Source of the DNA: a virus
IMG/VR virus record: IMGVR_UViG_3300008120_000126
Coordinates: 1 to 45,450 of that record
DNA length: 45,450 nt
Direction: 5' to 3' (one strand)
Shown here piece by piece: positions 7,929 through 34,438 of the stretch (position 1 is its first letter; each line of letters begins with the position of its first letter). The position numbers and the translations under genes are program-made. The notes below the pieces were generated by a model. That model saw only the letters and a list, made by a program, of their open reading frames with translations, did no database searches and was not told where the DNA came from.

Positions 7929-9722
7929 TTATCTTAACAAGGTTTTAGGCAAGTTGGCGCGATTCAATCGGCTAAATAGGCCCCCTAAATTGCGAGCAGT
8001 TGGACTGTTTTTAGTTTCAGACTTTCTATCCGCCCCAAACCCAAACTTTTCGCGACACAACGCCACTAACATTAACGCAGCGTCGGCCTCATCGGGGGAT
8101 TTCCCAATCCTCATTTTCATATCTGGCTTAGGCTCAGCTACCAATCTCATGTTAGACCCTTTTTTAGTGGAATAAGTCCTAGCGCATAACTCTCTAGCGA
8201 GGGTAGCTGTAACTCCGCGTATCTGCCCCGTCCTCATCAGTTCTTTAGCGCCGAACCAGATCTCAGTGACTCTGTTAGCGTATCGCTCGTTTGAAGGTGT
8301 GGGGTCAGAAACACTAGCTGGGAGTTCGCTAGCTTGACCGCCGAAATCAATTCGAACCACCCTATTAGACCACTCTCTAGCCACAATGTCCCCAAAAGGC
8401 TTCCCGGCCCCGCTGGCGTCAAAACAAGCATTTTCAGGAGCCACACCATTACTGATGCAGCGGTCTCTAAAAGTTTGCACTATTTGAAAGGATCTAGGTA
8501 CTGAAGTCTTGGTTACGTCCTCACGTAAAAACTCAACTCGGTCGAAACACAAAGTTTTCAGCCCGTCTCCATTCTCTCCGTACCACCCAAAATAAAGAGC
8601 CGTTCGATCGCCGCCATTTGTAAAAGCCGGGTCTAAAGCAGCAATCTTAACCGGAGGGGTCAGCCAGATCGCGGGTTGATCCGCTTTAAATTTTATAATG
8701 TCCGCTTCGGAATATATCCCATCAGCCGCACCAGTGGGGCTCCAGTAGCCGCGAATCATTCGCCAATACGCGTTAGAGTTTTCACCCAAAGATTCTCTTT
8801 GCTGCTCCAGAAAATCTGCAGTGATCAGCCACGGATACAGCGTCGAACCAGCAGAAATGTTAGGGCTCTTTTCGCCGTCCAACCTCAAACACTTCCCCCG
8901 GTCAGTCTCCCATTCCTCGCTCTCTGAGTTTATCGAGGCCCAGCCAGCTTTAGGTTTTGCGAAGACGCCAAAAGCGTCGTAGTAGCTTGCAGGGTTTCCG
9001 AGACCGACCATCTGAAACCAAGGATTCACCGCCAAGTTGGAATACGCCGCTCCAACAACAGACTCGCCCAACTCAGGGAGCTCGTCCGCGATCAGCAAAA
9101 CGCGAGGGGCCTTAAACCCGATCAATTTTCCGTAGGCTTCCTTGTCCTTACTTTTTTCGGCAGCGATCAAAGAAATTCCACTGCGATCTGAACCAGTCGA
9201 ATCTTTCGTCCCCATATCAAAACGAATCAATCCGACGGAGTCCACGAGCTTGCCCGGGGCTCTTCCTGGTATCGCCTGCCAATAATCTCGGATAGCTCCC
9301 CAAATGCGCTTCCGAGAATCTTTCAAAGATGTCGACGTCACGAGCACCATTGTTTTGCTTGGCAAGCATAAAAAATTTACGATTGCCCACACGGCCCCAA
9401 AATCAGATTTGCCCGTGCTGGCGGCCCCAGCTATCGCCAAAAAACTTTTTGGTTTTTCCATAGCCTCGCAAGCTTCTTCGAGCATTCGTTCCGCCCACGG
9501 GTGCCACACAAATTTTTTCCTTTTGTTGTTCGGCCCCCAAAGCATGTCCGAGATGGCTTTGAAATGCCCCGCTCTACCAAGACCGCCTGGGATCTCTGAA
9601 GGCCCTAACCGGAACGCCTTCAAATGCCGCATGAGTTGATTGTCAGTTTTCTTCCACCAAACACCCCACTGCAGTTCTACGTCTGAAGAGGGTGCGGGTG
9701 GGTTTACGGTTATAGAACTCAT
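7929..9722 (-). CDS. terL: Terminase large subunit (packaging ATPase/nuclease)
   Basis: 597 aa from the ATG at 9722. An upstream in-frame start would add 8 residues across a promoter-like box and is less likely. The N-terminal ATPase has Walker A GAASTGKS (residues 99-106) and Walker B VLLIADE (208-214). The C-terminal RNase H-like nuclease has conserved acids in 'ALDPAFTNGGDRTAL' (D364, D372) and 'CFDASG' (D435). It cuts concatemers and pumps DNA through the portal. It is the first gene of the late operon. The only terminase-small-like gene in view is far away on the same strand near 23.4 kb. Confidence 0.93.
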   Translation of the reverse strand: MSSITVNPPAPSSDVELQWGVWWKKTDNQLMRHLKAFRLGPSEIPGGLGRAGHFKAISDMLWGPNNKRKKFVWHPWAERMLEEACEAMEKPKSFLAIAGAASTGKSDFGAVWAIVNFLCLPSKTMVLVTSTSLKDSRKRIWGAIRDYWQAIPGRAPGKLVDSVGLIRFDMGTKDSTGSDRSGISLIAAEKSKDKEAYGKLIGFKAPRVLLIADELPELGESVVGAAYSNLAVNPWFQMVGLGNPASYYDAFGVFAKPKAGWASINSESEEWETDRGKCLRLDGEKSPNISAGSTLYPWLITADFLEQQRESLGENSNAYWRMIRGYWSPTGAADGIYSEADIIKFKADQPAIWLTPPVKIAALDPAFTNGGDRTALYFGWYGENGDGLKTLCFDRVEFLREDVTKTSVPRSFQIVQTFRDRCISNGVAPENACFDASGAGKPFGDIVAREWSNRVVRIDFGGQASELPASVSDPTPSNERYANRVTEIWFGAKELMRTGQIRGVTATLARELCARTYSTKKGSNMRLVAEPKPDMKMRIGKSPDEADAALMLVALCREKFGFGADRKSETKNSPTARNLGGLFSRLNRANLPKTLLR

Positions 9723-9838: not shown

Positions 9839-9848
9839 GGGGAGGGGA

Positions 9849-9894
9849 GCCGACACTCGGATTCGAACCGAGGACCGACGGTTTACAAAACCGT
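9849..9894 (-). other. attP: Phage attachment site core: 3' half of tRNA-Thr(UGU)
   Basis: On the minus strand the sequence reads as an anticodon arm ACGGT-TTTGTAA-ACCGT (anticodon TGT, Thr), a 5-nt variable loop, a T arm CTCGG-TTCGAAT-CCGAG and an acceptor 3' strand TGTCGGC. There is no D arm and no matching 5' acceptor strand before the anticodon arm, and no encoded CCA. A tRNA 3' half beside a tyrosine integrase is the classic att core. Phage genes on both sides make it attP rather than a prophage end. Confidence 0.85.
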
Positions 9895-10150
9895 TTATAC
9901 TGGGGTAATATCCTAGAAATACACCTAAGTTAAAAATATCAAAATCAAACATTTAAAATAAAAAGTGGTATATTATTGAATGTCACTAGGATGTTATAAA
10001 GTACCGTTTTTTCGCCAATTTTCTGGTATTTTGCGTCATTAGTCCGTCTATACTTTCAACGAGTTACTAGGGGTTTTAATCGCGGTAGCGGTCAAAAAAA
10101 CCGTTGAACATTTTTTGTCATGTGGTGTCAATACTAGCACAGAAAATTTT

Positions 10151-19195: not shown

Positions 19196-21358
19196 ATGCC
19201 AACACAGACGACCTATCTCGCAATCAAGAACCTCAGGAGCAACGACGCCTTCGACATCGGAGGCAAGCCATGGGAAGCCAGTATCCCGCCGCGCCCAGGA
19301 CTCCAGTCGGGGGCGACTAAAGAAGCTTATCGGGTTTGGTGCTCCGACCCAAACACCGACTGGGTCTTCTATACTTTTGCAGAGGGGCTCACCCCATCCC
19401 TAAGAGTTTCGGAAACAAATCCGGTCAAGTACCAACACGGCATTATTGCCGACTATGACTCGGTAGTTCCCATCGCCGACGCGAAGCAGATCCTCGCTAA
19501 CAACTGCCCGGCTGGGCTGGAGCCCACAGGAATCTCTCAAACATTCAGCGGGGGGATTCGTGTGGTGTGGGAGTTCGAAGAGCCGCTGATGTTGGACAAC
19601 AAGGGTCTCTACGAGTCTTTCATGGCTTACGCAGCAAAAGAACTGCGTGTAAAGAAACTGCTGCCACATTTTGACGAGACCTCCTTAAAGTCAAACCAGG
19701 TGTTCGAGATCGGTAGCGACTGGGAGCAGATTCCAGGTTCCCTTCCGATCTCATGTAATGTGGTCCATCATTGGCTGGCCGAATCCGCGCTTAAAGCCAA
19801 GAAGGTATCGGATAACAATACTTCAATCCCATACGATCGCATCGCAGCCGAGATCGAGAAACAGTTCCCAGGAAAGCTGCAGGGCGACATTAGAGAAGGT
19901 CTACGCGTGCCGCTGTTCTGGATCGACGACGGGATTGACCGTGTCGGTGCAGTCATGGGAGAGCACGGGGTTATATGTTTCTCGGACCGCGCAGGTAAGT
20001 CTTTTGTGCCGTGGGTAGAGATACTGGGTAAAAAGTTTGTTTCGGAATACGAAGCCGAGCGCACCGGAGCTGCCGCAGCAGACTTCTGGTATGACGGACG
20101 CGCCTATTGGGTCAAAGACAACGACCTATGGTGCCGACTCGTCAGCGAGGAGATGGGCCGTCGGTTGAAAGTCCTGTACAGGCTTTCCAGCAAGAACGGT
20201 AACAAGGACACCGCAAGCGAAGTAGATAAGGCTATGGTCGCAATCCAACAGACCAAGCGGGTGCAGTGCGTAGCGCCGTTCGTCTACAATCCGGTCGAAA
20301 TTCTAGACTTCAATGGAGCCAAGTACCTAAACACCAGCCAACGCAAAATGATGGAGCCCGCTGCAGAGGATGGGGATTTCCCCTGGCTCAAGAAGTTTTT
20401 GCTGGAGCCTGGTATCTGGGATAGCGCCGTGGATGAAAACGGAGTCGGCCAAAGAGACTACTTCTTAGCTTGGTTAAAAAGATTCTGGGAATCGGGCAGA
20501 GCGGGACGGCTGCTTTCGGGTCAAATGGTGTTCATCGCCGGAGGCGCGGGACAGGGTAAGACCTTTCTATCCTCGTTCATCATGGGCCAGATTTCAGGGG
20601 GACATAGCGATGCGAGCGGATACCTGCTAGGGGGAGGGGACTTCAATAAGGAGCTAGTCGAAGTCGGAGTGTGGAGCGTTGACGACGGTATGGCCACTAT
20701 CGACGGGACTAGCCGAAAGACTTTCTCAGCTAACGTTAAAAAGGTCGTCGCTCAAACCGAGATCCTTTACCATCCAAAGTTCCAAGATGCTACGAAGCTT
20801 CCGTGGCAGGGTAGGGTAGTCGTCACCTGTAACACGGACGAAGAGTCTCTCTCGATCGTCCCGACCACGGACAATTCAATCACAGATAAACTCATGCTGT
20901 TTAAACTCGGAGAATGGTATCCAAGTTTCCCACCTAACCACGTCATCGAGGCACAGGTCAATGCAGAACTGCCGTTCTTTCTAAGGTGGCTCTCCCAGTG
21001 GACCCCGCCACCCTGCATCATGGCATCGTCATCACGAAGCCGCTATGGAGTGAAGTCCTTCCACCACCCAGAAATCCTGGCTCACAGCCAGAGTCTCGCA
21101 GCAGCCACCCACCTCCGAGAAGACATTGACACCCTGCGACACCTGAAGGACAGCATCCTGTTCATAGATGGGGCGAAGGTGTGGGAGGGCACCTCAGGAG
21201 ACCTACTCCGAATCGGCAAGGACTTCTTTGCTACCAGGGCGAGTGCAGCGCAAATGGGCGTATGGTTGGCTCAAGTTCACAAAAGCAATGCAGCCCCGTG
21301 GCTGGGTCGCAGGGAAGGCAGGGCCCGGAAGACTCTCTGGATAATCTCCAAGCCGTAG
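19196..21358 (+). CDS. Primase (AEP-like) fused to SF3-type helicase
   Basis: 720 aa. The N-terminal part has the acidic pair of an archaeo-eukaryotic primase-like site in 'GIIADYDSV' (D86, D88) and a later 'SGGIRVVWEFEEP' strand. The C-terminal ATPase has Walker A GGAGQGKT (449-456), Walker B 'VWSVDDG' (492-498) and a motif C-like 'VVVTCNTDEE' (N546), as in phage SF3 helicases. It would open the origin and prime synthesis for PolA. It has its own promoter-like box and lies just upstream of the probable origin. The primase call is weaker than the helicase call. Confidence 0.82.
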   Translation: MPTQTTYLAIKNLRSNDAFDIGGKPWEASIPPRPGLQSGATKEAYRVWCSDPNTDWVFYTFAEGLTPSLRVSETNPVKYQHGIIADYDSVVPIADAKQILANNCPAGLEPTGISQTFSGGIRVVWEFEEPLMLDNKGLYESFMAYAAKELRVKKLLPHFDETSLKSNQVFEIGSDWEQIPGSLPISCNVVHHWLAESALKAKKVSDNNTSIPYDRIAAEIEKQFPGKLQGDIREGLRVPLFWIDDGIDRVGAVMGEHGVICFSDRAGKSFVPWVEILGKKFVSEYEAERTGAAAADFWYDGRAYWVKDNDLWCRLVSEEMGRRLKVLYRLSSKNGNKDTASEVDKAMVAIQQTKRVQCVAPFVYNPVEILDFNGAKYLNTSQRKMMEPAAEDGDFPWLKKFLLEPGIWDSAVDENGVGQRDYFLAWLKRFWESGRAGRLLSGQMVFIAGGAGQGKTFLSSFIMGQISGGHSDASGYLLGGGDFNKELVEVGVWSVDDGMATIDGTSRKTFSANVKKVVAQTEILYHPKFQDATKLPWQGRVVVTCNTDEESLSIVPTTDNSITDKLMLFKLGEWYPSFPPNHVIEAQVNAELPFFLRWLSQWTPPPCIMASSSRSRYGVKSFHHPEILAHSQSLAAATHLREDIDTLRHLKDSILFIDGAKVWEGTSGDLLRIGKDFFATRASAAQMGVWLAQVHKSNAAPWLGRREGRARKTLWIISKP

Positions 21359-21375
21359 GGCAACTGTTAGGAAAA

Positions 21376-21430
21376 GCCTAGTAGTTCAAGTCACGCTAGA
21401 CTTGCAGCCCAGTTTCTAAGCAGACTAGGC
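21376..21430. repeat. Nested inverted repeat after the primase-helicase gene
   Basis: GCCTAGT (21376-21382) pairs with ACTAGGC (21424-21430); inside it CAAGTC pairs with GACTTG around a 6-nt loop. It is too short and lacks the arms for a tRNA. It may act as a 3'-end structure of the replication operon or be part of the origin. Confidence 0.55.
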
Positions 21431-21509
21431 ACTAATCGCCATTCGCGAATAGCGTTCAGCGCATAAACTCGACATATACGCTTAAACGCATCATAGTATC
21501 CAAGGTTGC

Positions 21510-21812
21510 GGGGCAACCATCACCCCACCAAACCATCCCCCACCAATGTAAGGGCAACAGGGCGAAAGGGATGACCCCAAATGGTGATGGTGGTGATGGT
21601 TTTTGGCTATACCGTGCTTCCGGCGCTGTTTTCGCTGTTCCGTCCGTCAGGCGTGTGGGCTTTCTCTATTTCTCTATTATACCCCCCTTTTTATTATAAA
21701 CCATCACCACCATCACCATTTTAAATATAAGTATAAAAATTATCAACGACTTAAGTGTGGTGATGCCTGCTCAAAAATGCCTTCACCAACCCTCACCACA
21801 TCACCACTTGGT
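21510..21812. other. Probable origin of replication with iterons
   Basis: At least six copies of CCATCACC/TCACCAC-type iterons occur in both orientations. The centre is a perfect 24-bp inverted repeat (21579-21602 and 21698-21721) built of ATGGTGATGGTGGTGATGG, with a 95-nt spacer whose end is AT-rich. An AT-rich tract (about 21716-21750) follows. Iterons, inverted repeats and an easily melted tract beside a primase-helicase gene are hallmarks of an origin. Confidence 0.65.
21579..21721. repeat. Perfect 24-bp inverted repeat, 95-nt spacer
   Basis: The left arm at 21579-21602 is the exact reverse complement of the right arm at 21698-21721. Each arm itself contains direct repeats of GGTGAT/TGGTGG, so the arms act as opposed iteron clusters. 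Confidence 0.9.
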
Positions 21813-21822
21813 TTTGCCGCCC

Positions 21823-21882
21823 TCCCGAGCGGGAAGTTTTGTTCCATTTTTACGCGGATGCTTTGATTTGTTCCCGAGCGGG
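21823..21882 (+). terminator. Two CCCGAGCGGG hairpins with T-rich followers
   Basis: The same short stem-loop occurs at 21824-21833 (followed by AAGTTTTG) and 21873-21882 (followed, 8 nt on, by CTTTTTC). The short 4-5 bp stems make them weak terminators at best; duplicated protein-binding sites are an alternative. Confidence 0.35.
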
Positions 21883-22019
21883 GTTGCAGGCTTTTTCGGA
21901 AAAAAATTTTTCAACCTATCTATGTATAGTGCTCGATCCTGCGCCACGGCCCCACCCCCCTACCCGCGTGGTGTGTGCGCGCATGATGCACGCCGCGTAG
22001 CGCGGCCCGCGCACGCAGG

Positions 22020-22038
22020 CCCTCAGCTTCGCTGAGGG
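22020..22038. other. Strong GC-rich hairpin at the border of the structured RNA
   Basis: CCCTCAGC (22020-22027) pairs with GCTGAGGG (22031-22038) around TTC. It ends a very GC-rich patch (about 21945-22020) and may insulate origin and RNA region. Confidence 0.55.
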
Positions 22039-22048
22039 TTGGGGGGTT

Positions 22049-22434
22049 GGTTTGCCGTCGATCGGTTCGGTCGAATGGCATCGCTCTTTGCAGTGCAGGA
22101 TGGAAGCCCTGCCGACAATCGAATCGGTCTGAATGCCTCGGCAAACTCGAAGCAAGACATCAGGATAGATCCCAAACGGAAGTAGATGATGTGGATGGAA
22201 GAACTGATGCACCTTGCAAGCGAAAAGTCGGAAAAGAGAATGGATAGGATCGAAGGAACAGAGAAACCCGAAAGGGTTAGTCCGCTCTGGAAATGATGGG
22301 ACTGGTAGCGTCGAAAGACTTTATAGATTTAATCTATATTAAGCCGTGACCATGCCGTAGCGATCAGGGTAAGTATGTTTCGCAGAACAGAAAGCCTCGC
22401 CGAAATCGGAAGATATGTGGAACATATCAGCGAG
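22049..22434 (+). ncRNA. Candidate large structured non-coding RNA, unknown class
   Basis: Nested and branched pairings show at once: GTTTGCCG (22050-22057) with CGGCAAAC (22139-22146); inside it the hairpin TCGATC/GGTCGA (22058-22074) and GGCAT with ATGCC; then AACCC-GAAA-GGGTT (22265-22278), AGTCC with GGACT (22279-22303), GTC-GAAA-GAC (22310-22319), TATAGAT-tta-ATCTATA (22322-22338), and a three-way junction closed by CTCGC/GCGAG (22396-22434) with ATATGT/ACATAT within. Two GNRA tetraloops suggest tertiary contacts. There is no supported ORF. In size and complexity it resembles phage-borne ornate RNAs such as GOLLD or ROOL, but I cannot assign a class. The strand is inferred from neighbouring genes. 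Confidence 0.6.
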
Positions 22435-22479
22435 CACCCCACGCCGGATTAAAGTATGGGAAATGTAAACTCATCACTT

Positions 22480-22594
22480 GAGTTGTGCAGTAAGAAGTTT
22501 TCTGAAGTGTATTTACGGCAGTTTGCCTCAATATCAATACACCCTGCACAACTCCTGTCTGGAGTTCTCCTATGCACCGCTCTCCGTTGGAGAG
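22480..22594 (+). ncRNA. Structured module just upstream of the 139-aa gene
   Basis: A perfect 11-bp stem, GAGTTGTGCAG (22480-22490) with CTGCACAACTC (22544-22554), encloses GTGTATT/AATACAC (22507-22542), which encloses GGCA/TGCC. A further hairpin CTCTCC-GTT-GGAGAG (22580-22594) follows. It ends about 46 nt before a start codon with a good Shine-Dalgarno sequence. It may be the last domain of the upstream RNA or a separate leader element for the next gene. Confidence 0.6.
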
Positions 22595-22640
22595 TTGGAG
22601 CCAAGTCAAGTAGGAGGATTCCATTATCAGGAGTAAAGTT

Positions 22641-23060
22641 ATGATCACTAAAGAACTAGCTAATGTCGGCCCCATCACTAATCGTCTTTCTGCTAAAGGC
22701 AAAGACCTCGGCTCAAGGATTGCATACAATGGCAATCAAACCGCAAGTGAAATCCGTGCTTCCCTTCGGGAATCTGGGTTCAAGGGCAAAGAGTTGACCT
22801 ATAAGGTCAATGAAATCCTCTCCGGTGAAGCTGATGTTCGCTGGGTTAAGCACGAGCAGATTGTGTCTATTGCTAGAAGCAATGGGTTCGTTCCAGATTA
22901 CACCGACGCAAGTGCCAAAGGCACTTCTATGACGACTCGTTATGTCCGCCCTGAACAGCAATTCATTGCTGCGTCGGATGTCGCCGAAAAGAATGCCGTG
23001 ATTGCCGCACTCCAAGCGGAGCTTGCTGAACTCAAGGCACTTGTGGCCCCACAATCCTAA
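22641..23060 (+). CDS. 139-aa protein with C-terminal coiled coil, unknown
   Basis: It starts at an ATG with AGGAG seven bases upstream, one of the few clear Shine-Dalgarno sites in the window. The N-terminal 70 residues are helical and basic; the C-terminal 'AEKNAVIAALQAELAELKALV' is a heptad helix suited to oligomerisation. Regular codon use indicates a real gene. It lies directly behind the large structured RNA, so it might bind or be regulated by it; that is speculation. No family recognised. Confidence 0.7.
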   Translation: MITKELANVGPITNRLSAKGKDLGSRIAYNGNQTASEIRASLRESGFKGKELTYKVNEILSGEADVRWVKHEQIVSIARSNGFVPDYTDASAKGTSMTTRYVRPEQQFIAASDVAEKNAVIAALQAELAELKALVAPQS

Positions 23061-23081: not shown

Positions 23082-23103
23082 CCTCTCCCCTTCGGGGGAG
23101 GGG
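23082..23103 (+). promoter_or_regulatory. UUCG hairpin that includes the ribosome-binding site
   Basis: CCTCTCCCC-TTCG-GGGGAGGGG forms a 9-bp stem with a C(UUCG)G loop. Its 3' arm carries GGAGGGG, the only Shine-Dalgarno-like sequence before the next start 10 nt on. It could close off translation of that gene, or serve as a weak terminator of the 139-aa gene. Confidence 0.55.
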
Positions 23104-33970: not shown

Positions 33971-34225
33971 ATGGAAAACACAACAAACGAAACCCCATCA
34001 TGGGAAGAAATAACACCAACACTCCTTGAGTTAATTCATGGAGACAACGACGAAGCCGCCCAAGCTGCTATGCTTGACATCCGTAGGATGGCTAAGCTGG
34101 CAGACAAAGCAGCTCCGTTAGCCTGTATGCTAACTACAACACTCGACGCATTAGTAGAGCACGACGACGAGACAACAGAGCCGTTCGTTCGAAAACAGTT
34201 CGAGCAGCTATCCGAAAACAATTAA
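33971..34225 (+). CDS. 84-aa acidic protein, unknown
   Basis: Starts at the ATG at 33971 behind an A-run leader. Helical, acidic ('LLELIHGDNDEAAQAAMLDI'), reminiscent of small HEAT-like or anti-repressor proteins but not assignable. Confidence 0.5.
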   Translation: MENTTNETPSWEEITPTLLELIHGDNDEAAQAAMLDIRRMAKLADKAAPLACMLTTTLDALVEHDDETTEPFVRKQFEQLSENN

Positions 34226-34234
34226 ATTTGACAA

Positions 34235-34246
34235 GGTATAATATCT
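34235..34246 (+). promoter_or_regulatory. GGTATAATATCT box abutting a start codon
   Basis: The box ends one base before the ATG at 34247. If TATAAT is a -10, transcription would start at or inside the start codon, so either this gene starts at a later ATG (34277) or the box has another function here. Confidence 0.5.
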
Positions 34247-34438
34247 ATGGAACATCTGAGACACAGATCCGAATTGATGGGCAAACACTATTACGGGAGC
34301 AATCCCTGCATTCATCCGCTAATCATGGCGGAACTTATGATCCGGTTGGAGAACCGCCGAAAGGCCGAGCCTTCAACCCTGCGACCCAGCAATCTTTTAT
34401 CTAAGGTGCTATACACTTTGGCAAACCTTTTACCATAA
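34247..34438 (+). CDS. 63-aa protein, unknown
   Basis: Basic product with 'MEHLRHRSELMGKHYYGS'; an internal ATG at 34277 is an alternative start given the abutting box. The stop overlaps the next start (TAATG). Unrecognised. Confidence 0.5.
   Translation: MEHLRHRSELMGKHYYGSNPCIHPLIMAELMIRLENRRKAEPSTLRPSNLLSKVLYTLANLLP

Follow-up and report, generated by a model that had tools for sequence, protein, structure and literature searches.

Location and coding status

The window, by which we mean the whole stretch of DNA that was analysed, is a 45,450-base IMG/VR virus record of an uncultured phage. A gap at 21359-22640 separates a DUF5906 primase-helicase-like gene (19196-21358) from an ORF of 139 amino acids with a pI of 8.9, here called ORF1 (22641-23060, + strand). 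ORF1 is followed by a hairpin (CCTCTCCCCTTCGGGGGAGGGG, 23082-23103, + strand), and two related phages, L005 and L015, have a hairpin at the same place. A terminase-small-subunit-like gene lies just downstream of the region.

The upstream part of the gap holds a perfect 24-nt inverted repeat, AAATGGTGATGGTGGTGATGGTTT, with arms at 21579-21602 and 21698-21721 and a 95-nt AT-rich core between them. This origin-like repeat is kept in L005 (68% over 317 nt), and it supports the statement of a first-pass annotation that the RNA discussed here lies next to the phage origin. The layout is the same in L005 with GGTGGTGGT units and in L015 with GGGTAGGGG units. Since the repeat unit differs between phages while the arrangement is kept, this is likely an origin.

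Further along lies a leader element, AAAAATTTTTC...TATA...CCCGCGTGGTG, with nearly constant spacing (21902-21973, + strand). Lying directly 5' of the proposed RNA, it may be a promoter or may act as a DNA element. A search pattern taken from the leader comparison, AAAATTTTTY-N38-66-CCCGCGTGGTG, finds 16 stretches in IMG/VR. The 13 matches in GTDB genomes are not meaningful, and as none of them comes with the helicase, chance matches are of another kind. Two phages, L112 and L118, have the leader element without the RNA, with an opposite-strand terminase-like gene directly after it. The element may therefore not be the RNA's promoter, but instead a DNA site that serves the origin or packaging. 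A canonical sigma-70 promoter for the leader RNA was not found beyond chance.

The rest of the gap, 21975-22640 on the + strand, is proposed here to be a leader RNA of about 666 nt, the 5' end being putative. Taken whole, the region from about 21977 to 22640 has an MFE z-score of -3.2, and covarying RNAs are found in the same slot of relatives.

This region is non-coding. The codon signature of the phage is absent from every ORF in 21359-22640; ORFs within 21600-22640 have codon log-odds of at most 0.035, versus at least 0.11 for the phage's genes. A Pfam search of 21359-22640 returned nothing above cut-off. The earlier statement that there is no credible ORF is thus borne out, and the protein family match that would have argued against it was looked for in Pfam without a hit above cut-off. 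The Rfam search suggested at that stage (GOLLD, ROOL, HEARO, introns) was run as well. No Rfam family reaches its gathering threshold across the region, and relaxing the threshold up to an E-value of 10 yields only chance-level matches, far under their cut-offs. Group I and group II intron models have no match in the region at E-values up to 10, and the region sits between intact genes, interrupting neither. Searching phages and plasmids with blastn for distant homologues gave only a 50-nt chance match, in the origin part. The exact pattern of the window RNA, looked up in IMG/VR, retrieves identical copies only. The reading as a large Rfam-negative RNA that includes the module starting at 22480, at about 660 nt and non-coding, is supported.

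The core of the proposed RNA

The first-pass annotation had focused on 22049-22434, the central part of this RNA, because of its many complementary segments. Several elements can be named on the + strand. A hairpin, CCCTCAGC-TTC-GCTGAGGG, is predicted at 22020-22038. A domain at 22050-22146 is closed by an 8-bp helix of GTTTGCCG (22050-22057) and CGGCAAAC (22139-22146), as seen in a single sequence. A candidate H-type pseudoknot at 22259-22303 can be read from the sequence, in which CAGAG (22259-22263) pairs with CTCTG (22285-22289), and AGTCC (22279-22283) with GGACT (22299-22303). Inside it is a GAAA-capped hairpin, ACCC-GAAA-GGGT, at 22266-22277. With the GTC-GAAA-GAC hairpin at 22310-22319, this accounts for the two GNRA tetraloop hairpins that had been reported. 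The reported three-way junction also has a counterpart, a candidate arrangement at 22396-22434 where CTCGC and GCGAG surround two hairpins in the predicted fold.

The number of stems is another matter. There are 13 perfect stems of at least 6 bp in 22049-22434, versus 12.8 ± 3.5 in shuffled sequence, and the MFE z-score is -1.37 for this interval and -0.43 for 22040-22470. So the named stems exist, but their number is at chance, and the argument based on the wealth of complementary segments does not hold. Three GNRA hairpins have stems of at least 3 bp, versus 1.2 expected. Local z-scores over 100 nt (+ strand, against the whole window) are unremarkable in the core, and the one stretch that departs from the background is about 22476-22650.

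A weak z-score of the window core does not by itself exclude an RNA, because the covariation-supported cores of relatives score alike (-1.30 for L120, -0.93 for the first 430 nt of L109). For whole non-coding regions, those of the relatives and of the window, + strand z-scores range from -2.1 to -5.0. The support for the window core is positional and architectural, and its folding is putative.

Related phages

A search with the helicase led to L005 (contig 3300042879_005258, helicase 85% identical), L015 and L008. In all three, long non-coding stretches separate the helicase from the terminase-small-subunit-like gene. The inverted repeat and leader element of the window can still be aligned with L005, but from about 22000 onwards, through the whole of ORF1, the two sequences cannot.

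Phages with the leader element supplied the further relatives, which were placed in group A (L108, L110 and L120, of which L120 is the same contig as L015), group B (L109, L113) and group C (L116, L117, L121). Together with L005 these are nine phages, or ten with the window, and each has the same architecture: some 600-820 nt of non-coding sequence, then an ORF of 122-163 amino acids. Because L112 and L118 have the leader and lack the RNA, RNA and ORF1 together seem to form a cassette that a phage may or may not carry.

L008 has a strongly folding non-coding region at 7990-8475 (z about -4 to -5), which follows the positional ORF1 rather than preceding it. As its ORF order differs, L008 is kept out of the main argument. 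Downstream of the helicase, L017, L018 and L019 have 0.3-1.1 kb of non-coding DNA with repeated GTTGATNATCAACG-like palindromes.

Covariation

The three sequences of group A contain 17 two-sided compensated base pairs. In 500 shuffles this number is never reached, and slid partners give 0-3. The structure was written by hand over 472 columns and chosen with its sequences in view, which inflates the excess; the gap is still large. Helix 8 of this structure is out of register and contributes nothing. There are 21 G-U cells versus 4 A-C cells, a bias that agrees with an RNA of + strand sense. The group A structure has many helices and also a covarying pseudoknot-like element.

For the five sequences of groups B and C, five helices with 24 pairs have 100% of their cells paired. 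Four pairs have two-sided changes, a count that is in itself unexceptional (62 of 500 shuffles); the cells paired and the covariation score are above all shuffles. An 18-base RNA motif of these groups, searched for as an exact match in IMG/VR, is confined to the five phages.

Two covariance models were built. R1, made from L120 and L110, finds the held-out L108 with an E-value of 7e-20. R2, made from L109, L116 and L121, finds the held-out L113 at 4e-15. Neither matches L005. On the window, R1 scores an E-value of 1 or worse, and R2 on the window core a non-significant 0.13, so neither model places the window in group A or in groups B and C. The cores are regarded as unalignable between groups, because the models recover their own held-out members and not the window. 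Either the RNAs may evolve very rapidly, or the slot may be occupied by different RNAs. The window core may likewise be a homologue of the cores in other groups, or may have no more than their position in common with them.

Two candidate links did not hold up. A motif, CCCACGCCGGA...GGGAAA (22436-22464), noticed by hand as one that the window has in common with group A, gets an E-value of only 2.6 from R1. Pairwise structural alignment of the window with L108, L109, L113 and L005 scored above decoys at the first parameters. Such scores vary with length and parameters, and no coherent common helices appear in the tracebacks, so these scores are not evidence of homology.

R2 also has a weak match elsewhere in the window, at 34193-34291 on the + strand (13.4 bits, E-value 0.2). 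R1 has one in L017, within the helicase region (E-value 0.02), which is probably chance.

A predicted pair of competing helices before ORF1

The last part of the RNA, 22480-22640, has an MFE z-score of -5.7. It has 7 stems of at least 6 bp versus 2.2 in shuffled sequence, a number that none of 60 shuffles reaches. Two + strand helices are predicted here. P1 (22480-22554) is an 11-bp helix of GAGTTGTGCAG (22480-22490) with CTGCACAACTC (22544-22554). P2 (22551-22634) pairs ACTCCTG (22551-22557) with CAGGAGT (22628-22634), and closes a further long helix with an apical hairpin. The ACTC of ACTCCTG is common to both, so the helices compete. According to fold prediction, P1 is the preferred pairing in transcripts that end before 22628.

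P2 takes in the Shine-Dalgarno sequence of ORF1, AGGAG (22629-22633, + strand), whose predicted probability of being unpaired is about 0. Of the two computed folds, which exclude each other, one therefore has the Shine-Dalgarno sequence paired. A 7-nt anti-Shine-Dalgarno stretch is found in 35 of 3000 shuffles, and one that also has a competing helix of at least 8 bp in none of 3000; the test is post hoc, having been designed once the feature had been seen. Judging by the modelled folds, 22480-22640 is probably a translational switch for ORF1 that works by sequestering its Shine-Dalgarno sequence.

Relatives have an analogous terminal element. In group A, CACCYAGTCC pairs with GGGCTRGGTG, and this middle strand is an equally good partner for ACACCYAGTT, which lies 12-14 nt ahead of the ORF1 start. 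L110 has all three strands altered together. The same three-strand arrangement, with another sequence, is found in L005 (GCAATCC/GGATTGC/GCAATCC). Written as X1-X'-X2, a triple 7 nt long and 12-20 nt before the ATG is present in L120, L110, L108 and L005, with a frequency in shuffles of 1/400 to 5/400 for each. A joint alignment of group A and L005 has the X':X2 helix and its continuation 100% paired, with 4 two-sided changes. Group C has a weaker version, read by eye, where TTGG is common to two helices.

ORF1 follows the RNA always in this phage group. Its proteins are basic across groups (pI 8.9-10.3) and possibly bind nucleic acids. The structure predictions are of low confidence (pLDDT 52 and 60), and searching the PDB with them gave no match. 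Between groups the proteins are barely alignable, with only marginal similarity. This suggests that RNA and ORF1 may change together.

Interpretation

Our best explanation, to which we assign a probability of roughly 0.5, is that this is a large structured 5' leader RNA with a translational switch controlling ORF1. The leader would be transcribed from the + strand and span some 660 nt, between the element at 21902-21973 and ORF1. Its 3' end would be bistable. During RNA synthesis, X' (CTGCACAACTCCTG, 22544-22557) would first pair with X1 (GAGTTGTGCAG, 22480-22490). Once X2 (CAGGAGT, 22628-22634, with the Shine-Dalgarno sequence) emerges, it would pair with X', the long hairpin would close, and the start signal would be hidden. 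The upstream core might sense something, be it a ligand, the ORF1 protein, another phage protein or the state of the ribosome, and shift this balance, which would then set ORF1 translation. Several observations count against this explanation. The ORF1 proteins are barely alignable, so that a common regulated gene is a candidate only, and in group A the Shine-Dalgarno sequence is not obviously within X2. The chance-level number of core stems, the lack of a canonical sigma-70 promoter beyond chance, the reversed order in L008, and the leader element without RNA in L112 and L118 count against it as well.

The main rival is a free, trans-acting large RNA in the manner of GOLLD or ROOL. It would share a transcript with ORF1 until cleavage at the terminal hairpin set it free, and might have ORF1 as its protein partner. 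A phage-borne non-coding RNA of 600-820 nt with many helices, a covarying pseudoknot-like element in group A, a core far larger than an ordinary leader, and a basic ORF1 that always follows would all suit such an RNA. Against this, a 3' end that sequesters in the manner of a switch speaks for a role in cis, the core differs between groups, and there is no tRNA nearby, as there is at many GOLLD and ROOL loci (PMC12286853). The leader position and the sequestering end favour a cis-acting leader, and we judge the free RNA to be unlikely.

A second alternative is that only the terminal hairpin at 22480-22640 is functional, with 22049-22434 neutral or decayed in the window, though other phages keep a structured RNA there. 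The chance-level stem number and MFE of the core would follow, and there is no alignable core homologue to set against it, the identical copies being uninformative. But z-scores are just as weak for the covarying cores of L120 and L109, and all full non-coding regions, the window's included, lie at -2.1 to -5.0 on the + strand. Compact phage genomes rarely retain neutral bases by the hundred, which also makes a decayed core improbable. Least probable is an element acting as DNA, part of a replication origin or a packaging site, with stems forming in single-stranded DNA. The perfect inverted repeat and the primase-helicase gene adjoin the region, the terminase-small-subunit-like gene is just downstream, and the leader element persists without RNA in L112 and L118, all of which suit a DNA element. 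Yet the conserved DNA element stops before the variable region, and RNA is a better fit to covariation over hundreds of nucleotides, to a terminal helix at the ORF1 start, and to a wobble bias on one strand (21 G-U versus 4 A-C cells).

Returning to the leader with a switch, it might represent a new class, the giant phage leader RNA. In such a class the three-strand switch and the gene order would be kept, while a core of several hundred nucleotides would be replaced or rewritten between close relatives, core and ORF1 changing as one cassette. We put this forward tentatively, and regard it as rather doubtful.

Relation to known RNAs

To our knowledge, few large structured phage RNAs are known. 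Here an RNA absent from Rfam would sit at the same position throughout a group of uncultured phages, and end in a predicted switch before one gene. With one gene, two helices and simple mutants, the predicted switch is a concrete handle on the function of a large phage RNA. A changing core next to a conserved end would be an unusual mode of RNA evolution.

Among large phage RNAs, GOLLD and ROOL assemble into cages made of RNA only; they are often found near tRNA islands, and no function has been assigned to them (PMC12286853). ROOL stands for Rumen-Originating, Ornate, Large; the solved example is 659 nt long and has pseudoknots (PMC12286853). GOLLD has one variable part and one that is better conserved (PMC12286853).

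The proposed leader RNA recalls both by its size, its setting and its wealth of helices. It resembles GOLLD in being large, non-coding, phage-borne and known from environmental sequence, and both have a variable and a better conserved part. Unlike GOLLD, it has no Rfam match and no neighbouring tRNA, is directly upstream of an ORF, and has a 3' end that sequesters a Shine-Dalgarno sequence. With ROOL it has in common its size, its phage location and pseudoknots (here the pseudoknot-like element of group A), but it comes without an Rfam match, a tRNA island or detected common sequence. No Rfam family, GOLLD, ROOL and HEARO included, reaches its gathering threshold for this region in the window or in the relatives. 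The proposed leader RNA should not be filed under GOLLD or ROOL.

Riboswitch-type expression platforms and translationally autoregulated phage leaders are also comparable, as they too have two mutually exclusive helices, one of which hides the Shine-Dalgarno sequence. Compared with these, the upstream domain is several times larger here, and belongs to no known aptamer family.

ARAGORN calls no tRNA genes in the window, and so the tRNA neighbourhood of GOLLD and ROOL is absent. This includes 9848-9904 on the - strand, 12 kb away, where Rfam has a borderline tRNA match of 29.4 bits against a cut-off of 29.
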